64,000 nt of DNA from Aurantibacillus circumpalustris (GTDB lineage: Bacteria; Bacteroidota; Bacteroidia; B-17B0; Aurantibacillaceae), in assembly GCF_029625215.1 (NCBI RefSeq), contig NZ_CP121197.1, positions 434,001 to 498,000 of the forward strand, written 5' to 3'. Both the position numbers and the translations under genes were made by a program. The notes under the pieces are model-generated. The model was not told where the DNA came from, did no database searches, and saw only the letters and a program-made list of their open reading frames with translations. The first letter of the stretch is position 1, and the number at the start of each line of letters is the position of its first letter. This document shows positions 27,449-45,679 of this stretch, piece after piece.

Positions 27449-30400
27449 TTAGTTATAGCGAGTGCCAATAACTAAAATATCATCTACTTGTTCATGTGTG
27501 CCACGCCAATTTTCAATGGATATATTAAGCAACTCTCTTTGCTCAGCCATTCCCAAGTGTTGTGAATTAACGAGCAAATGTTTTAAAGCACTTGATTTAA
27601 ATTTTTTACCTGCAGGTCCGCCAAACTGATCTGAATATCCGTCAGAAAATATGTAAATAGTATCTCCCTTTTCAAGCGGAATTTCGTGATTGGTAAACTT
27701 ATTGTTTTCACCAGATTTCGAATTACCTATAGGAAATTTATTGGCTTTTATTTCGATTAACTCTTTATTTCTGATTATCCATAAAGGATTATATGCACCA
27801 GCATATTCAAGCACTCCCTTCTTCTTATCGAAGGAACAAATCGCAATGTCCATTCCGTCACGCACGGTATTATCCTCTAAATCTGTTTGTCGTAAGGTAT
27901 CGGATATACTTTTGTTTAATTCGTCCAGTATTCTCGCGGGTTGCGTTATTTTTTGCTCACCAACAACTCTGTCTAATAAATTATGCCCAACAATCGACAT
28001 AAAAGCACCCGGAACACCATGGCCCGTACAATCAACGGCTGCAAAGATAACTGTGTCTTTTTTATCTTCCATCCAATAAAAATCTCCACTTACTATGTCC
28101 TTCGGTTTAAAAAGAACAAACGTGTTAGGTAAATGCTTTTTCACGAAATCATCCGGTGGCAAAATAGCATCTTGAATACGTTTGGCGTAACGAATACTTG
28201 CAGTAATATCCTTATTTATTTCATCCAATTCTTTGTTTTTTTCTACAACTTCAGCGGTGCGTTCGTTTACTTTATCTTCCAGTATTTTCTTTTCATCGCG
28301 TAATTTTCGTTCTCTTATTTTAATATAAGCAAACAAAGCACTTACTATTATAGAAAACATAATTAAATAAAACCACCAGGTTTTCCAGTATGGTGGACTA
28401 ATATTTATTTTAATATCTATAGATTCACTACAAACTCCTCTACTATTGCAAGATCTTAGATGAAAAACATATTCATTATCTGTAAGGTTTGAATATACTT
28501 GGGAAGTTTCTGTGACTGTCTTCCAATCCCCATCGTAACCATCAAGTTTAATTTTATATTTCACTCCTTCCGGGTTTGAAAGCGAAATACCTACGAATTC
28601 AAAATTTAGAGAATTTTCTTCGTAAGATAATTCAACTTTATCTGAGAGGGGGTACTCTTTAAGATTAACTTTAAATGAAAGCATTTTTGTGAGGGGTGGT
28701 GGTGGAAGCTTTTCATCAAGTTTTGGACTATACTTAAATGCTCCATTTACAGTACCAAACCAAAGATTATTTTCATTATCACTATAAAATGATCTCGACT
28801 TTGTTTCTACACCCGTAAAACCATCACCGCTCAAGTAAGAGGAGAATGTAGCTTTTTCAAGGCTAAATTTATTGAGTCCTTTATTTGTTCCTAACCAAAC
28901 ATTATTGTTTTTATCTGCGGTAACAAGTGTAATAAAATCAGATTCGAGTCCATCTTTTACTTTATAATTCGTAAAAGACTTTCCATCATAAACAAAAGCA
29001 CCACCACCTTCAGTTCCAACCCAAATTCTATGCTTAGCGTCTTCTGTTATTGAAGAAATACTTGTGTTATTGAGACCGTTTTCACGATTATATTTTCTAA
29101 TCTCTTTACCATTGTAAACGCTTATTCCCTTTTGTTTTGTTCCAATCCAAATATTTCCTTTTGTGTCTTCAAAAAGACATGAAATGTCATTGTCACTTAA
29201 TCCGTCTATTGTACGTAATGTTTTAATAGCACCAGTAGCGAGATCATAGTATACAATTCCTTCATAGGTTCCAATCCATAAACGATTTCTACTATCAATC
29301 AAAAGAGAACTTACTAAAGTATTTACAATATCGTTTAGAGCTGGGATTTGTTGTAAATGTCCTTGCTGTGAATCATACTTAATAACCTTACCACCCCACA
29401 TACCAATCCACAGATTTCCATATTTATCAGCCACTATTGCACGAATATTATTGTTCGGCAATCCTTCTGCCATAGTTATATTTTTACAAGCCTTGTCATG
29501 GGTCTCTTTAGGATTATATAATGTTAAACCTTCGTTGGTACCAAACCAATAATTTCCATTTCGATCCTGGCTTATTGCCCAGACCTGATTATCACGCATT
29601 CCGTTTCGTTTAGAAATCGAGACAAATTTTTCACCAGAAAATACCTGTAACCCTTCGCCAGAAGTGCCCAAAAGAATATTTCCATCTTTATCTTCAAAAA
29701 TATTTTTTATTTTATTGGTCGCTAAGCCGTTGTTTGAATTAAAAGCTGTAACTTTCTTTGTCTTTTCATTATATCTGTACACGCCCCTATTCGCAACTGT
29801 TACCCAGATATTATTCTCCCTATCTTCAAGAATTGTATAAACATAGTTTGGCCCTCCACCAAATATATCATTAGCAATTTCCTGAGGACTAAAAAGGAGT
29901 TCGAATTTATTTTTAGCTACGTCATATTTCGATACACTTCCAGCAAGAGTTCCAACCAAAAAATTATTGTTGTGATCCAGTGTTAACGCTGAAATTTGCC
30001 CGATTGGCATATTTTCAGGTCTGAAAAAATCAAATTGACGCGTACTTCTGTCCATTATTTTTATGCCCACATCGGTGAGAAACCAGAGGTTTCCTTTAGT
30101 ATCTTGCGATGTAGAAATAACGTATTGGCTTAAGCCCTGACGGCCTGAATAAACTTTAATTGCCAGCTGTTCCTTTAAATCTCTTGACGGATCTAAAATT
30201 TTGATAACACCTGCAGAAAACGTTGAAATCCACAAACTACCCGTTTTATCCTGAAAAAAACCATATATTTTTTTATCTTTGGGAAGCAATTTTGATTTTA
30301 TTTCAGTAAAGGTTTTACCGTCATATTTGGTAAGCATTCCATTTTCGTGACCCAACCAAATGTGATTATTTTTATCTAAAAAAATAGCGCTGACATTATT

Positions 30401-30631
30401 ATCCGCTAGGCCGTCTTCTTTAGTATAATTAATGAAATTTTTTCCGTCGAATCTTGAAACGCCGCCATCTGTTGCCAACCAATAAAACCCAGCACTATCC
30501 TGAATAATACCCGAAACGTTAGATTGCGCCAACCCATCTTTTACCCCAAAATTGGAGAAATGATAGGATTGCGCATTAAATAAAAGTGGTAATAAAAGTA
30601 GAAAGAATTGTATAATGTTTCTGAAATACAT
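27449..30631 (-). CDS. Propeller sensor with Y_Y_Y domain and SpoIIE (PP2C) phosphatase
   Basis: 1060 residues. Signal peptide about 1-20. About residues 25-630 are two-component-regulator propeller repeats (patterns GDGLADNNVSAI, DNNHIWLG, GNIWIGT). A Y_Y_Y domain follows (about 650-740), one membrane helix (about 755-778), a coiled coil (about 785-840) and a SpoIIE/PP2C phosphatase domain (about 860-1060) with metal-site motifs VSGDFYWME, VDCTGHGVPGAFM and FSDGYSDQFGG. The output is therefore predicted to be serine/threonine dephosphorylation in the cytoplasm in response to a periplasmic signal. It is the second gene after the caspase gene (24-base gap). Substrate unknown. Confidence 0.93.
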   Translation of the reverse strand: MYFRNIIQFFLLLLPLLFNAQSYHFSNFGVKDGLAQSNVSGIIQDSAGFYWLATDGGVSRFDGKNFINYTKEDGLADNNVSAIFLDKNNHIWLGHENGMLTKYDGKTFTEIKSKLLPKDKKIYGFFQDKTGSLWISTFSAGVIKILDPSRDLKEQLAIKVYSGRQGLSQYVISTSQDTKGNLWFLTDVGIKIMDRSTRQFDFFRPENMPIGQISALTLDHNNNFLVGTLAGSVSKYDVAKNKFELLFSPQEIANDIFGGGPNYVYTILEDRENNIWVTVANRGVYRYNEKTKKVTAFNSNNGLATNKIKNIFEDKDGNILLGTSGEGLQVFSGEKFVSISKRNGMRDNQVWAISQDRNGNYWFGTNEGLTLYNPKETHDKACKNITMAEGLPNNNIRAIVADKYGNLWIGMWGGKVIKYDSQQGHLQQIPALNDIVNTLVSSLLIDSRNRLWIGTYEGIVYYDLATGAIKTLRTIDGLSDNDISCLFEDTKGNIWIGTKQKGISVYNGKEIRKYNRENGLNNTSISSITEDAKHRIWVGTEGGGAFVYDGKSFTNYKVKDGLESDFITLVTADKNNNVWLGTNKGLNKFSLEKATFSSYLSGDGFTGVETKSRSFYSDNENNLWFGTVNGAFKYSPKLDEKLPPPPLTKMLSFKVNLKEYPLSDKVELSYEENSLNFEFVGISLSNPEGVKYKIKLDGYDGDWKTVTETSQVYSNLTDNEYVFHLRSCNSRGVCSESIDIKINISPPYWKTWWFYLIMFSIIVSALFAYIKIRERKLRDEKKILEDKVNERTAEVVEKNKELDEINKDITASIRYAKRIQDAILPPDDFVKKHLPNTFVLFKPKDIVSGDFYWMEDKKDTVIFAAVDCTGHGVPGAFMSIVGHNLLDRVVGEQKITQPARILDELNKSISDTLRQTDLEDNTVRDGMDIAICSFDKKKGVLEYAGAYNPLWIIRNKELIEIKANKFPIGNSKSGENNKFTNHEIPLEKGDTIYIFSDGYSDQFGGPAGKKFKSSALKHLLVNSQHLGMAEQRELLNISIENWRGTHEQVDDILVIGTRYN

Positions 30632-30646
30632 ACAAGATTATACAAT

Positions 30647-30654
30647 CAAAGCTA
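30647..30654 (-). promoter_or_regulatory. -7-like element before the SpoIIE gene
   Basis: TAGCTTTG on the minus strand matches TAnnTTTG exactly, in the 24-base space between the caspase gene and the SpoIIE gene, 16 bases before the latter's ATG. No -33 TTG is seen at normal distance. It may give the phosphatase its own transcript. Confidence 0.3.
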
Positions 30655-30655
30655 A

Positions 30656-32998
30656 TTATTTTTTGATAAAGAAATAAGTTCCACCTTCATCTTCAAGATC
30701 TTTAATTTTTCCGAATTTTGGAGCTTGATTTCCAGCTTGAGAAACAGAATAAGTTACCTTTTTCACGATTTTCTCAATCGGTAAACATGGTTCAACATTA
30801 TTGTTGAGGGCGCTCACAAATGTTTTAGTGAACTGTGAGTTATCTGAAGCGAGTTCATAACCAGCTGAAGTAAATACTTGAGAAGATTTAGCTTTTGTTA
30901 GTTCGAAATTATCACAACGTTTTTCATCATCACCACCACGCATTGCCATTAAAAAAGTTGCTCCTGATTCGCAAGCGTCAGTAATTACAAGTGTATGAAC
31001 TAACTTCCCTGCATACGACTGCATAGCCGCCTTTAAGTTATTAATACCAAAATAGCTAAACTCATCGTCAGTTTTTCCATCAGCAGGTACCCAGTATCCA
31101 GTAGGACTCACATACTTACCATGTCCAGCATACCAAATCAATAAGGAGTTAATGTTATTATTCTTTACATAGTCCCTTAACTCAATGGAAAAGAACTTCT
31201 CCATTTCAATCTTAGTCATGTTTTGCTTAAAAACGGTTTTAGTTATTTTGTAATTAGCTAAAGCTGTTCTCATCGCAGTTACGTCCTTCGCTGGACCTTC
31301 AAGGCTAGGAAAATTTGTGTATTTACTGTTTTCGATAAAAACAACCCAAGTATTGCCCATCGGATTGTCAACACCAGCGGTTGAAGCAGTGCGGTTAAGC
31401 GCATAAACTTGAATGTTTTCATTACCATAAATATCTTTAACAGTAATTGAAATTTTTGCTTTTTCAGCAATTTTTATTTGAGTAGAAAATTCCGGGTTAA
31501 GATTACTTGGGTTAAAAGAAGCACTTATTCCATCGATGATAATTGATTCAATCAAACTGGCATCCTTTATTTTACCTTGCAAATAAATCTCCTGGTTATT
31601 GTTTTCAATAAAGATTTCATTTTCAAAAGTAGCAATTGGAGTTTCAATAGCTATAATTGGCTTGTCGCTTTCTGTTTTTTCAATTTTAAACTGAGTCGTT
31701 TGAGTATTGTTATATACATCTGTAGCGCTCACTGTAATTTCATTTAATTTAACCAGATCTGTAATATTTAAAGTAAAAACAGGGTTCAATGAATCCATTG
31801 AAAATACAGCAGTTCCTGAGTTAACATCAATATTTTTAATTAAGCTGGCATCCTTTACAATACCTTTAAGAGTGATTTCGTTTTTATCAGATGCTATTTT
31901 AATGACGTTTTTGTCAGCTTTCATGGAAGTAAGCTCAATCTCAGGCTTAGTGGATTCTTTATTCAACTCAAAAATCTTCTTTTTCGCCTGTTTCACAATG
32001 CCGTCAATCTTTTCATCGCCTGTTGCAAGGGAAGCTACTCTATTGTAGTCGGATAATGCCGCTTTAAAGTTCTGAATCAATTCGCTTGCGTAAGCCCTAT
32101 TTAAATAAGCTACAACGTTTTTATCATCCAGTCTAATAATTTGAGAATAATCATTGATTGAATTGTGATGTTGACCAAGAACTGCATAAAACGAAGCTCT
32201 TTGCATAAATGCTTCGGTAGTTGGTTTGGTTAAAATAACCTTAGTGATTTCATTTATGGCATTTTGGTAATCCTTTTTAGCCGCGTGTACTAAACTTTTT
32301 GTAAAAAACACATCTGGATTATTAGGATCCTTAGTCAAAGCTTCATTACAAACCTTCATAGCATCGTCAGTCTTGTTTAACTCAATTTGAGTTAAAGCAA
32401 GAGCAACGTAAGCAGGAATAAATTTGGCGTCTACCTGTTTTGAACTTCTATAGAATTTCTCAGCTTCAATGTTATTCTTTAAGCTATCAAGCATTACAGC
32501 ATGATTGTACAAACTCAAAGCGGTTTTTTTGTTAGCAAGAGCCATTTCGGTTACCTTCATACCGTAATTGTAATCTCTCAATTCAAATAAAACCTTAACT
32601 TCCAAAGCCAATGCGTCTACGTAATGTTTATCGCGTTCGATTGCTTTACGCAACATATCATCAGCTTCTTTATTTTTCTTAAGTTCTGCAAATAAGCGGC
32701 CAGACTCATAATAGTATTTTTTTTCCTTCGGGTTAAAAACAGAAGCTTTGTTGTAATCTTCAATCGCTTCAGATTTAAAATTTATTTTTTCGTAACATAC
32801 AGCCCTTGATATGTAAGCCTTTTCTAACTTTGGCTCCATTTCTAATGCTTTTGAATAGTTTTCTATTGCGCCTTCATAATTCTTTGCTTTTTCAAACTTC
32901 ACAGCAGCGCTCATATATTTTTTTGGAGATTGAGCTAAAACAAATGACGGAATTAGCGCTAATATTCCCACGATTAATAAACTTCTGAATATTGACAT
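30656..32998 (-). CDS. TPR and caspase-domain (C14) protein
   Basis: 780 residues from the ATG at 32998; the in-frame ATG at 33037 would place 13 residues before the signal peptide MSIFRSLLIVGILALIPS. About residues 20-330 are tetratricopeptide repeats. Two beta-sandwich-like repeats follow (about 345-440 and 450-540), both with a DASLI(KN/ES)I segment. The caspase domain (about 545-780) keeps the dyad: His in IWYAGHGKY and Cys in ITDACESGATF. The signal peptide places the protease outside the cytoplasm. It is the first gene of a probable operon with the SpoIIE sensor. Substrate unknown. Confidence 0.92.
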   Translation of the reverse strand: MSIFRSLLIVGILALIPSFVLAQSPKKYMSAAVKFEKAKNYEGAIENYSKALEMEPKLEKAYISRAVCYEKINFKSEAIEDYNKASVFNPKEKKYYYESGRLFAELKKNKEADDMLRKAIERDKHYVDALALEVKVLFELRDYNYGMKVTEMALANKKTALSLYNHAVMLDSLKNNIEAEKFYRSSKQVDAKFIPAYVALALTQIELNKTDDAMKVCNEALTKDPNNPDVFFTKSLVHAAKKDYQNAINEITKVILTKPTTEAFMQRASFYAVLGQHHNSINDYSQIIRLDDKNVVAYLNRAYASELIQNFKAALSDYNRVASLATGDEKIDGIVKQAKKKIFELNKESTKPEIELTSMKADKNVIKIASDKNEITLKGIVKDASLIKNIDVNSGTAVFSMDSLNPVFTLNITDLVKLNEITVSATDVYNNTQTTQFKIEKTESDKPIIAIETPIATFENEIFIENNNQEIYLQGKIKDASLIESIIIDGISASFNPSNLNPEFSTQIKIAEKAKISITVKDIYGNENIQVYALNRTASTAGVDNPMGNTWVVFIENSKYTNFPSLEGPAKDVTAMRTALANYKITKTVFKQNMTKIEMEKFFSIELRDYVKNNNINSLLIWYAGHGKYVSPTGYWVPADGKTDDEFSYFGINNLKAAMQSYAGKLVHTLVITDACESGATFLMAMRGGDDEKRCDNFELTKAKSSQVFTSAGYELASDNSQFTKTFVSALNNNVEPCLPIEKIVKKVTYSVSQAGNQAPKFGKIKDLEDEGGTYFFIKK

Positions 32999-33569
32999 GA
33001 TATTGGATTTTAATGTTTGACTGAACGAAGATAACAATTTTTTTAAACAGAAGTCCGTAATAAGTCACTATTTTGAGGAAGCACTCCAATTTGTTAAAAT
33101 TCTTGTTAATTAAATGGTTTTAGATGTTAATAACTCGAAACCGCGCTGGAAAATGACTCTTTTTTGCTTATTTTCTCACTACTATATCACCTCAATATCA
33201 TACTTTCCGAGCCAACTAATGAAATAATGGGGTTAGGGTTCAGTATGATGTTGTTATTTGCGACGGAAAATGACTTTTTCAACAGACAGATTCATCCAAG
33301 CTATTCTTAAGTTAAAAGAAAACTCTGTTTTATGAAACTGATCACAGAAATAGAAACTTAGCCGGTGATAAATTTAACCGTATTTAGACACTAGAAGCCT
33401 TTGAAAAAGATGAACTGGCTGTCTTAATGCGGGAAATCCCGATATAGTGTTTGCAAGGATTTCTTAATGAAAGAATGGCTTGAAATACCCACAAACACTT
33501 AATCGCAGACCGTTCTTCTTTTGAACTGTTTAGGGTTTGATGAACACCATACGTTGATAAAGAGTTTTG
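32999..33569. other. Gene-free stretch, probably degraded DNA
   Basis: No frame of useful length is open on either strand. GGAAAATGACT occurs twice in the same orientation (33148-33158 and 33265-33275), each followed by a run of T. Short protein-like fragments broken by stops occur on the plus strand near 33390-33530 (for example EAFEKDELAVLMREIPI). This looks like a decayed gene or transposon remnant, but I could not assign a family. The left part also holds the leader of the caspase gene. Confidence 0.45.
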
Positions 33570-45103: not shown

Positions 45104-45679
45104 CTAGTCAACGCTAATTGTTGCCTCCATTAAGAACATGGATCTGTCATCATTTATTTGTTCAAACTGCATACCGAGCTTGTTACCGCTTTTCATGCCA
45201 ATGGTAATAAATCCCAAGCCAGCACCACCTTTTTCACTTAACTCATTATTTTCAAGATGCTCTAAATAATATGTTTTTAAATCTGCCGGATCTTGAAAAG
45301 AGTTTATTTTTTCAATATGTTTTTCTAATTTTTCAATCGCAGAATTAGCAATTAAATTAGCCGTAATCATTTTAACAGCTTTGTCACTGATATAGAGAAT
45401 GAAAAAATTATGCTTAGCGCCACTCTCATCTCTATGTCCATGTATATACATGTTTTGTAAAGATTCGATGCAGATAAAAAATACTTTTTTTACTACAGAT
45501 TTTGGAAGATTTTTATCAAGAATATTGGTTTCGATCTCCGTTTCAAGTTTAGAGATAGTTTCAGAGTTTAAAACGCCATCATAAGCAAGGATTACTTTCC
45601 CTAAGCCATTTGCATCTTCAACACATTTAGAAAAATGTTGATCGAAAAATTCAGCGTCTTTATTTACTATACTGCTCAC
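45104..45679 (-). CDS. SiaB-like (DUF6272) anti-sigma-type kinase
   Basis: 191 residues from a GTG start. The pattern KVFFICIESLQNMYIHG, a variable centre and LSEKGGAGLGFITIGMKSG matches the SiaB/DUF6272 family, GHKL-type kinases related to anti-sigma factors. In Pseudomonas SiaB phosphorylates SiaC, and the PP2C phosphatase SiaA reverses it. Neither a SiaC-like protein nor an adjacent phosphatase is present here. The start overlaps the stop of the deoxynucleoside kinase gene by one base (TAGTG), which suggests coupled translation. Confidence 0.83.
   Translation of the reverse strand: MSSIVNKDAEFFDQHFSKCVEDANGLGKVILAYDGVLNSETISKLETEIETNILDKNLPKSVVKKVFFICIESLQNMYIHGHRDESGAKHNFFILYISDKAVKMITANLIANSAIEKLEKHIEKINSFQDPADLKTYYLEHLENNELSEKGGAGLGFITIGMKSGNKLGMQFEQINDDRSMFLMEATISVD

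Follow-up and report, generated by a model that had tools for sequence, protein, structure and literature searches.

Does a secreted caspase act together with the transmembrane receptor phosphatase encoded directly behind it? The question is raised by a 64,000-nucleotide stretch of Aurantibacillus circumpalustris (contig NZ_CP121197.1, positions 434,001 to 498,000; hereafter the window), whose host genome is a single contig of 4.6 Mb. An earlier note, made from the letters alone, had described a caspase with a His/Cys dyad and a signal peptide ahead of a transmembrane PP2C receptor, and had suggested that periplasmic proteolysis may be linked to cytoplasmic dephosphorylation. Both open reading frames are present as it described, with His626 and Cys676 intact. 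We consider it probable that the two genes encode a conserved two-protein envelope signalling module, in which the caspase would be the dedicated periplasmic partner that controls the sensor and a SiaC-type protein would serve as the relay. The pair and its parts are as follows, in window coordinates.

30656 to 32998, minus strand: secreted TPR / Ig-like / C14 caspase gene of the orthocaspase type, 780 amino acids, ATG at 32998, stop ending at 30656
32933 to 32998, minus strand: signal peptide, residues 1-22, likely cleaved between VLA and Q, read by eye from the sequence
31964 to 32929, minus strand: TPR solenoid, residues about 24-345, from Pfam, model helices and Foldseek matches
31394 to 31951, minus strand: two beta-sandwich (Ig-like) domains, residues about 350-535, from model strands and conservation
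30713 to 31348, minus strand: Peptidase_C14 caspase domain, residues about 551-762, Pfam 2.6e-15, above the cut-off
31121 to 31123, minus strand: codon of catalytic His626 (YAGHG), from the sequence and the orthologue alignment
30971 to 30973, minus strand: codon of catalytic Cys676 (DACES), from the sequence and the orthologue alignment
30632 to 30655, minus strand: intergenic gap of 24 bp from caspase to receptor on the same strand, covered by the terminator scan
27449 to 30631, minus strand: propeller receptor with SiaA-type PP2C output, 1060 amino acids
28712 to 30571, minus strand: periplasmic beta-propellers resembling BT4663 (4a2l), residues about 21-640, from sequence and fold search
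28409 to 28579, minus strand: Y_Y_Y domain, residues 685-741, Pfam
28307 to 28378, minus strand: transmembrane helix, residues about 752-775, then a coiled coil; the predicted helix spans 752-779, with low confidence at its end
27458 to 28126, minus strand: PP2C phosphatase domain, residues about 836-1058, with D850, D867, G870, D928, D997, D1001, D1050 and D1051 intact

The 793-amino-acid open reading frame listed for the caspase begins at an upstream TTG instead of the ATG at 32998. By eye, its N-terminus (MSIFRSLLIVGILALIPSFVLA, then Q) is signal-peptide-like and lacks a lipobox cysteine, and the protein would be periplasmic; from the predicted strands, the paired beta-sandwiches may be Ig-like. 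We aligned 101 orthologue rows, 89 of them distinct, in which the dyad is retained as is usual for the p20 domain of C14 peptidases: His in 101/101 and Cys in 100/100 (one row is truncated at a contig end). The residue two positions before the cysteine, D674, is Asp in 100/100 rows; it may be the counterpart of Asp211 of TbMC2 and a candidate part of an acidic S1 pocket for a basic P1 residue.

Conservation of the caspase-receptor pair

With the caspase as query, 118 of 120 genomes, among them the host, gave matches, mostly to its TPR or C14 parts. An orthologous caspase, full-length or contig-cut, occurs in 25 of the 120 (G080, at 29% with a broken frame, was left out of this count), and the sensor, or at least a part of it, is present in every one of the 25. 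The sensor is the next same-strand gene in 22 of the 25, host included, with gaps between -59 and 38 bp when the first possible start is taken. A contig end truncates the caspase in G038 and G010, where the sensor or part of it begins another contig, whereas G074 has both genes unlinked. No near-full-length sensor match of at least 42% was found in those of the 120 genomes that lack the caspase, a threshold at which weaker members of the clade could be missed.

A second set, drawn from named genomes of GTDB r220, comprised the best 80 of 248 candidate loci, at least 12 of which repeat rows of the 120-genome alignment. Four of the 80 end at a contig edge, and in 72 of the 76 that are not contig-cut the sensor is the next same-strand gene, at a median gap of 14 bp; 61 of these 72 partners carry both sensor parts in one open reading frame, the rest being contig-cut or split. 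The loci without an adjacent sensor are L112, L129, L155 and L159 (L numbers denote loci, G numbers genomes). L112 is an extra paralogue, its genome carrying the pair at a different place; a 43-45% sensor lies elsewhere in the genomes of L155 and L159, and the genome of L129 gives weaker, partial matches only. Identity to the window falls as low as 37% for the caspase and 35% for the sensor while the pair persists. Nearly all 80 labels are Bacteroidota lineages, with one 'bacterium' and one Chlorobiota; record titles include Bacteroidales, Flavobacteriales, Vicingaceae, Sphingobacteriaceae, one Chlorobiota-labelled metagenome-assembled genome (MAG) and the cultured isolate Plebeiobacterium marinum D04 (L151). 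The earlier note had proposed looking for co-occurrence across Bacteroidota and had conceded that adjacency only here would refute it; that refutation fails on these counts. Conserved adjacency and co-presence together strongly support a functional link between caspase and receptor. The scan of the 24-bp gap listed no terminator-like site, and the two genes may share a single transcript.

In a quick sensor tree, 21 sensors paired with TPR-caspases and the unlinked sensor of G074 form one clade (SH-aLRT 99), although the G074 sensor may or may not fall inside it; for G121 and G122, assignment of the sensors rests on identity and not on the tree. A second clade of 12 rows (98) contains 11 sensors paired with other caspases, and its one unpaired row is L243, which is cut by a contig end. 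As the control we took 40 loci, which together contain the full list of 42 C14-only matches from genomes other than the host and were chosen without knowledge of the neighbouring genes. A propeller-PP2C sensor stands immediately beside the matched C14 gene in 8 of the 40, on the same strand in L178, L182, L183, L185, L188 and L189 and tail to tail in L196 and L199. In L190 the sensor adjoins the third C14 gene of the locus, which has an unread residue at the Cys position, and in L213 one opposite-strand gene separates C14 gene and sensor; both loci are counted among the 11. The host, too, contains one pair of this sort, arranged tail to tail with 2 bp between the genes (L085). The chance expectation is approximately 1.5%, taking some 30 SpoIIE genes in an assumed total of 3900, and the binomial values of 1.6e-7 for eight and 8.6e-9 for nine pairs are too small, as they assume independent loci and 3900 genes. 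The caspases L178:5734-8295 and L185:6166-8727, directly before the same kind of sensor, are WD40-repeat proteins and thus of another architecture. A very long branch separates the TPR group from the others in the caspase tree, with long-branch warnings.

Among 21 other propeller-PP2C sensors examined, none (0/21) has a C14 neighbour. This sample omitted G072:C3 and G087:C72, which lie beside or one gene from C14 genes, as well as G072:C31, G108:C201 and G079:C40, and sensors ranked below it, namely those of the control loci, do adjoin C14 genes. Eight caspase-less sensors (L227, L228, L229, L230, L234, L237, L240 and L241) have a same-strand gene of about 430-460 amino acids upstream; seven of these genes were scanned, and five show a CarboxypepD_reg-like domain, weak in most. 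Sensors of the propeller-PP2C class may generally have an upstream partner of their own. A bolder generalisation would make these systems a widespread class of protease-gated transmembrane phosphatases of Bacteroidota. The periplasm-to-cytoplasm pathway to SiaC-type phosphoprotein switching would then depend on a secreted caspase as its opening step, and this one class of sensors would have been combined with two or more highly divergent lineages of caspases; we regard it as doubtful.

The receptor output and a probable SiaB/SiaC relay

The receptor matches Reg_prop (2.8e-63), Y_Y_Y and SpoIIE (7.1e-21) in Pfam. Its PP2C domain aligns with the SiaA-PP2C of Pseudomonas aeruginosa (6k4e) at E 7.4e-44 and 32% identity, with a TM-score of 0.89 to the target. 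The part of PMC7647112 consulted gives the SiaA active site as D457, D474, G477, D600, G601 and D653, plus D534 and D604. With the numbering matched by hand count, these residues align with D850, D867, G870, D997, G998, D1050/D1051, D928 and D1001, in order, as in a PP2C fold. From sequence and fold, the output domain, which falls within Pfam SpoIIE, reads as a SiaA-type PP2C that keeps its metal ligands. The full-length SiaA equivalog NF038263 scores 213 bits, over the C-terminal part only, versus a cut-off of 700; the receptor thus appears to share the output domain of SiaA and not to be SiaA itself. The host has 30 SpoIIE-domain loci, of which 29 reach at least 228 bits with a profile of the receptor PP2C and 28 keep all eight checked positions; the exceptions are L016, with Glu for Asp928, and L004, which is of another kind.

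Two of the 21 paired sensors, L071 and L079, have ectodomains 61 and 54% identical to that of the window and PP2C parts at only 42 and 45%, whereas the PP2C is more conserved than the ectodomain in the remaining 18 relatives. By this comparison, the PP2C part of these two appears to have been replaced by another subtype with propeller and caspase retained, so that it appears to be the periplasmic side of the receptor with which the caspase is connected.

What would such a phosphatase act on? The host has four SiaC matches, all above the curated cut-off and none inside the window, and five SiaB-family matches, three of them above the cut-off; SpoIIE-SiaB-SiaC clusters stand at host positions 2793593-2795969 and 4146938-4150061. 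STAS matches number only two in the host. Across the genome set, SiaC occurs in 102 of 120 genomes, in 25/25 with the TPR-caspase versus 77/95 without the caspase (p 0.023), and in 100/100 genomes whose best sensor match is at or below 1e-75 versus 2/20 others, at a cut chosen after the table had been seen. At least 29 sensors, in 27 genomes, sit 48-1848 bp upstream of a SiaC gene; these are sister sensors and not the caspase-paired ones.

The most direct connection comes from a Bacteroidales MAG (L174:530-7809), in which caspase, receptor, SiaB and SiaC genes follow one another on the same strand, separated by 33, 68 and 42 bp. Its caspase is 41% identical to that of the window, with the dyad motifs intact, and its receptor 35%; the SiaB-family kinase scores 157 bits with NF038262 (cut-off 85) and the SiaC 144 bits with PF09345 (cut-off 24.5). 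A gene for 185 amino acids without a Pfam match lies 15 bp past SiaC. From the SiaA-type output, the host SiaB and SiaC homologues, the four-gene run of L174 and the scarcity of STAS matches, we infer that a SiaC-type phosphoprotein is the most likely substrate of the receptor phosphatase. Placed side by side, the approximately 29 such phosphatases of the host and its four SiaC matches possibly form a many-to-few signalling hub. One of the SiaB-family genes of the host lies in the window itself; it is not linked to the pair by position and is possibly a member of the same phosphorylation network.

45104 to 45679, minus strand: SiaB-like (DUF6272) kinase gene, its start touching the end of a deoxynucleoside-kinase gene

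Weighing the explanations

In the module that we favour, the caspase would be exported to the periplasm, with its TPR and Ig-like domains ahead of a caspase domain whose active site is intact, and the receptor would span the inner membrane with its propellers outside and the SiaA-type PP2C inside. The caspase would bind the propeller sensor, or supply a proteolytic signal to it, and so set the activity of the phosphatase, which would dephosphorylate a SiaC-type phosphoprotein that SiaB-type kinases phosphorylate. The caspase would be the probable upstream regulator of the sensor. A number of observations count against this picture. The caspase domain is modelled poorly in the predicted structure; solo TPR-caspase paralogues exist; and the sampling is MAG-heavy, with loci that are not independent. 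In the second caspase group, 11 paired and 18 unpaired rows are mixed in one clade of 29, and the paired label requires 12 changes over the C14 tree, a distribution that reads as patchy pairing or as repeated gain or loss. As for the relay, a SiaA substrate-loop residue, F612, is Lys in the receptor by hand count along the alignment. Among the 101 caspase loci that we scanned with the host SiaB and SiaC proteins, both were found in three (L109, L159 and L174); the SiaB/SiaC genes are a few kb off in L109 and L159, on the other strand in L109, and L159 is without an adjacent sensor, which leaves the four-gene run in 1 of the 101. Given the number of host phosphatases of this PP2C type, about 29, specificity for SiaC is uncertain. 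The receptor, finally, shows no convincing conserved caspase-type cleavage site.

The alternative that survives best, although we think it rather unlikely, reverses or dissolves the direction of signalling: the sensor would regulate the caspase or its operon, or both proteins would contribute side by side, without contact, to a single process of the envelope, for example the turnover of proteins. The solo caspases fit this reading, as their existence implies that the protease can work without an adjacent sensor, and so do the numerous outputs of this PP2C type in the host. It accounts less well for the dearth of sensors in caspase-less genomes, within the detection limit given above, for the rule of caspase-first order and a short gap, and for the two loci in which the output was swapped yet ectodomain and caspase were retained.

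A special case of the favoured module, in which the caspase cuts the receptor ectodomain, or itself when docked, and thereby switches the phosphatase as in a protease-gated receptor, turns on catalysis and on cut sites, and we judge it unlikely. Catalysis seems to matter, because the dyad is intact in all readable orthologues and lost in an unpaired TPR-caspase paralogue (L091:8732-11116), which has Thr at the catalytic Cys position and is probably inactive. The invariant D674 fits a basic P1 residue, and we therefore examined the receptor for conserved basic positions. A strict filter over the whole receptor returned seven clade-specific positions, none of them basic. With a looser, class-based filter, K191, R397 and K611 are the only places in the ectodomain where 90% or more of the 75 paired sensors have a basic residue, and at most 10% of 21 unpaired ones have one there; the enrichment (Fisher 5.6e-5) rests on three positions and on cut-offs chosen along the way. 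The model puts all three in beta-strands, so that they are better seen as contact or ligand residues than as cut sites, and possibly just mark the clade; two divergent members, L090 and L231, have Thr in place of R397. The juxtamembrane linker has no conserved basic site in the alignment rows shown. An equally good candidate lies in the caspase itself: R536, at the entry of the linker that leads from the Ig-like domains to the protease domain, is Arg in 99/101 rows. R687, past the catalytic Cys, is near-invariant among orthologues, and both arginines are candidate self-processing sites by their conservation. At the R536 position four of five solo paralogues have Arg and one, L092, has Ser. The absence of a conserved cut site in the receptor therefore favours a dedicated periplasmic partner, acting through binding or proteolytic products, over direct cutting. 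The link between periplasmic proteolysis and cytoplasmic dephosphorylation that the earlier note proposed thus gains support from adjacency and co-presence, whereas its suggestion that the caspase cleaves the periplasmic part of the receptor does not.

Could the genes be neighbours by inheritance of gene order alone? The pair of the window is flanked by clpX and a TonB-dependent receptor gene, and siaB and siaC do not adjoin it as in a SiaA-type operon. We compared flanks at 35% identity and 60% coverage in stretches of 8-19.5 kb and found ClpX kept in 0/21 paired loci, the TonB-dependent receptor in 6/21 and an SDR gene in 5/21, the latter two being flanks kept by close relatives; in many Bacteroidales loci, neighbours of equal lengths recur on both sides of the pair. 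Gene order thus appears to be more widely kept within Bacteroidales loci, but not between them and the group of the window. No flanking gene is shared between the window, L128 (Bacteroidetes MAG) and L168 (Flavobacteriales MAG), and the pair nonetheless persists down to the identities given above. L128 is presumably flanked by prmC and ribD upstream and by LOG-family and rpsT genes downstream. Furthermore, of the four genomes with neither an adjacent sensor nor a paired copy (G074, G120, G121 and G122), all except G120 have a 38-45% full-length sensor elsewhere. Flank turnover and the control loci therefore make chance adjacency or slow synteny decay without function very unlikely. Least probable of all is an immunity or cell-death system with the caspase as effector and the receptor as sensor: bacterial caspases do occur in conflict systems (PMC7159879, in the part consulted), but both proteins look exported or membrane-bound, and in PADLOC the sensor is without a match and the caspase gives only a PrimPol hit confined to its TPR region, which led us to reject a defence system. 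Matches to 62 plasmid records all stay below 80% coverage of the caspase, at 36-51% in the ten listed, and plasmid cargo was rejected as well.

Some features of the caspase bear on none of these alternatives. C695 and C738 are Cys in 100/100 orthologue rows, and their conservation makes a disulfide within the caspase domain possible. A search of solved structures with the caspase domain as a single query gave no match, and the fold search with the caspase model returned TPR-type proteins among the 50 matches listed, judged by their titles. In L131, L142, L144 and L150 an extra caspase-domain gene of 258-270 amino acids lies directly upstream of the TPR-caspase, and that of L144 looks like a signal peptide and a caspase domain alone. 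More than 500 bp of the window (33038-33569), between the TonB-dependent receptor gene and the caspase, are without a long open reading frame; some relatives have other genes here.

Comparison with known systems

In one open-access library, with most subscription journals and bioRxiv preprints outside its scope, we recognised no description of a caspase with a propeller or SpoIIE/SiaA receptor, in agreement with the earlier note, which knew of no pathway with this pair. The sole paper that combines caspase, SpoIIE and Bacteroidetes concerns other proteins, as far as the part consulted goes, and such a pair is unmentioned in the portions of PMC6426788, PMC12088040, PMC7159879 and PMC4933709 consulted. 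In the parts of this literature examined, envelope signalling is not among the roles assigned to bacterial caspases. The regular pairing with a receptor phosphatase gives them a concrete, testable pathway that points to signalling and not to death, and it names SiaB/SiaC as the likely cytoplasmic relay, a prediction shared by the 89 distinct orthologues. To our knowledge, the role of caspases in Bacteroidota is open.

The closest counterpart of the output is the SiaABC(D) threonine-phosphorylation pathway of P. aeruginosa, with which the pair shares a SiaA-PP2C-homologous domain, the SiaB and SiaC families in the host genome and the one gene run of L174. It differs in having a propeller as sensor part, a caspase partner and no adjacent siaB or siaC, as well as in the Lys counted at the place of F612. 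On the sensor side, the hybrid two-component systems of Bacteroides (BT4663, BT3049) have the same Reg_prop propellers and Y_Y_Y domain (4a2l, 1.6e-121), but their output is a histidine kinase and response regulator, whereas that of the window is a PP2C with a caspase partner. PorZ of the type IX secretion system is similar in its propellers (NF052228, 124 bits; 5m11); the receptor falls below the curated cut-off of 260 and is a membrane receptor with a PP2C. As for the protease, orthocaspases, or bacterial metacaspases of family C14, share the HC dyad and the Asp two residues before the Cys, and the consulted part of PMC6426788 names Cys92, Asp95, Ser159 and Asp211 of TbMC2. The caspase of the window differs from them in its secreted TPR/Ig architecture, its divergent clade (subject to the long-branch warnings) and its regular sensor partner. 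The parts are thus of known kinds, and it is their combination, and its breadth, that appear to be new.

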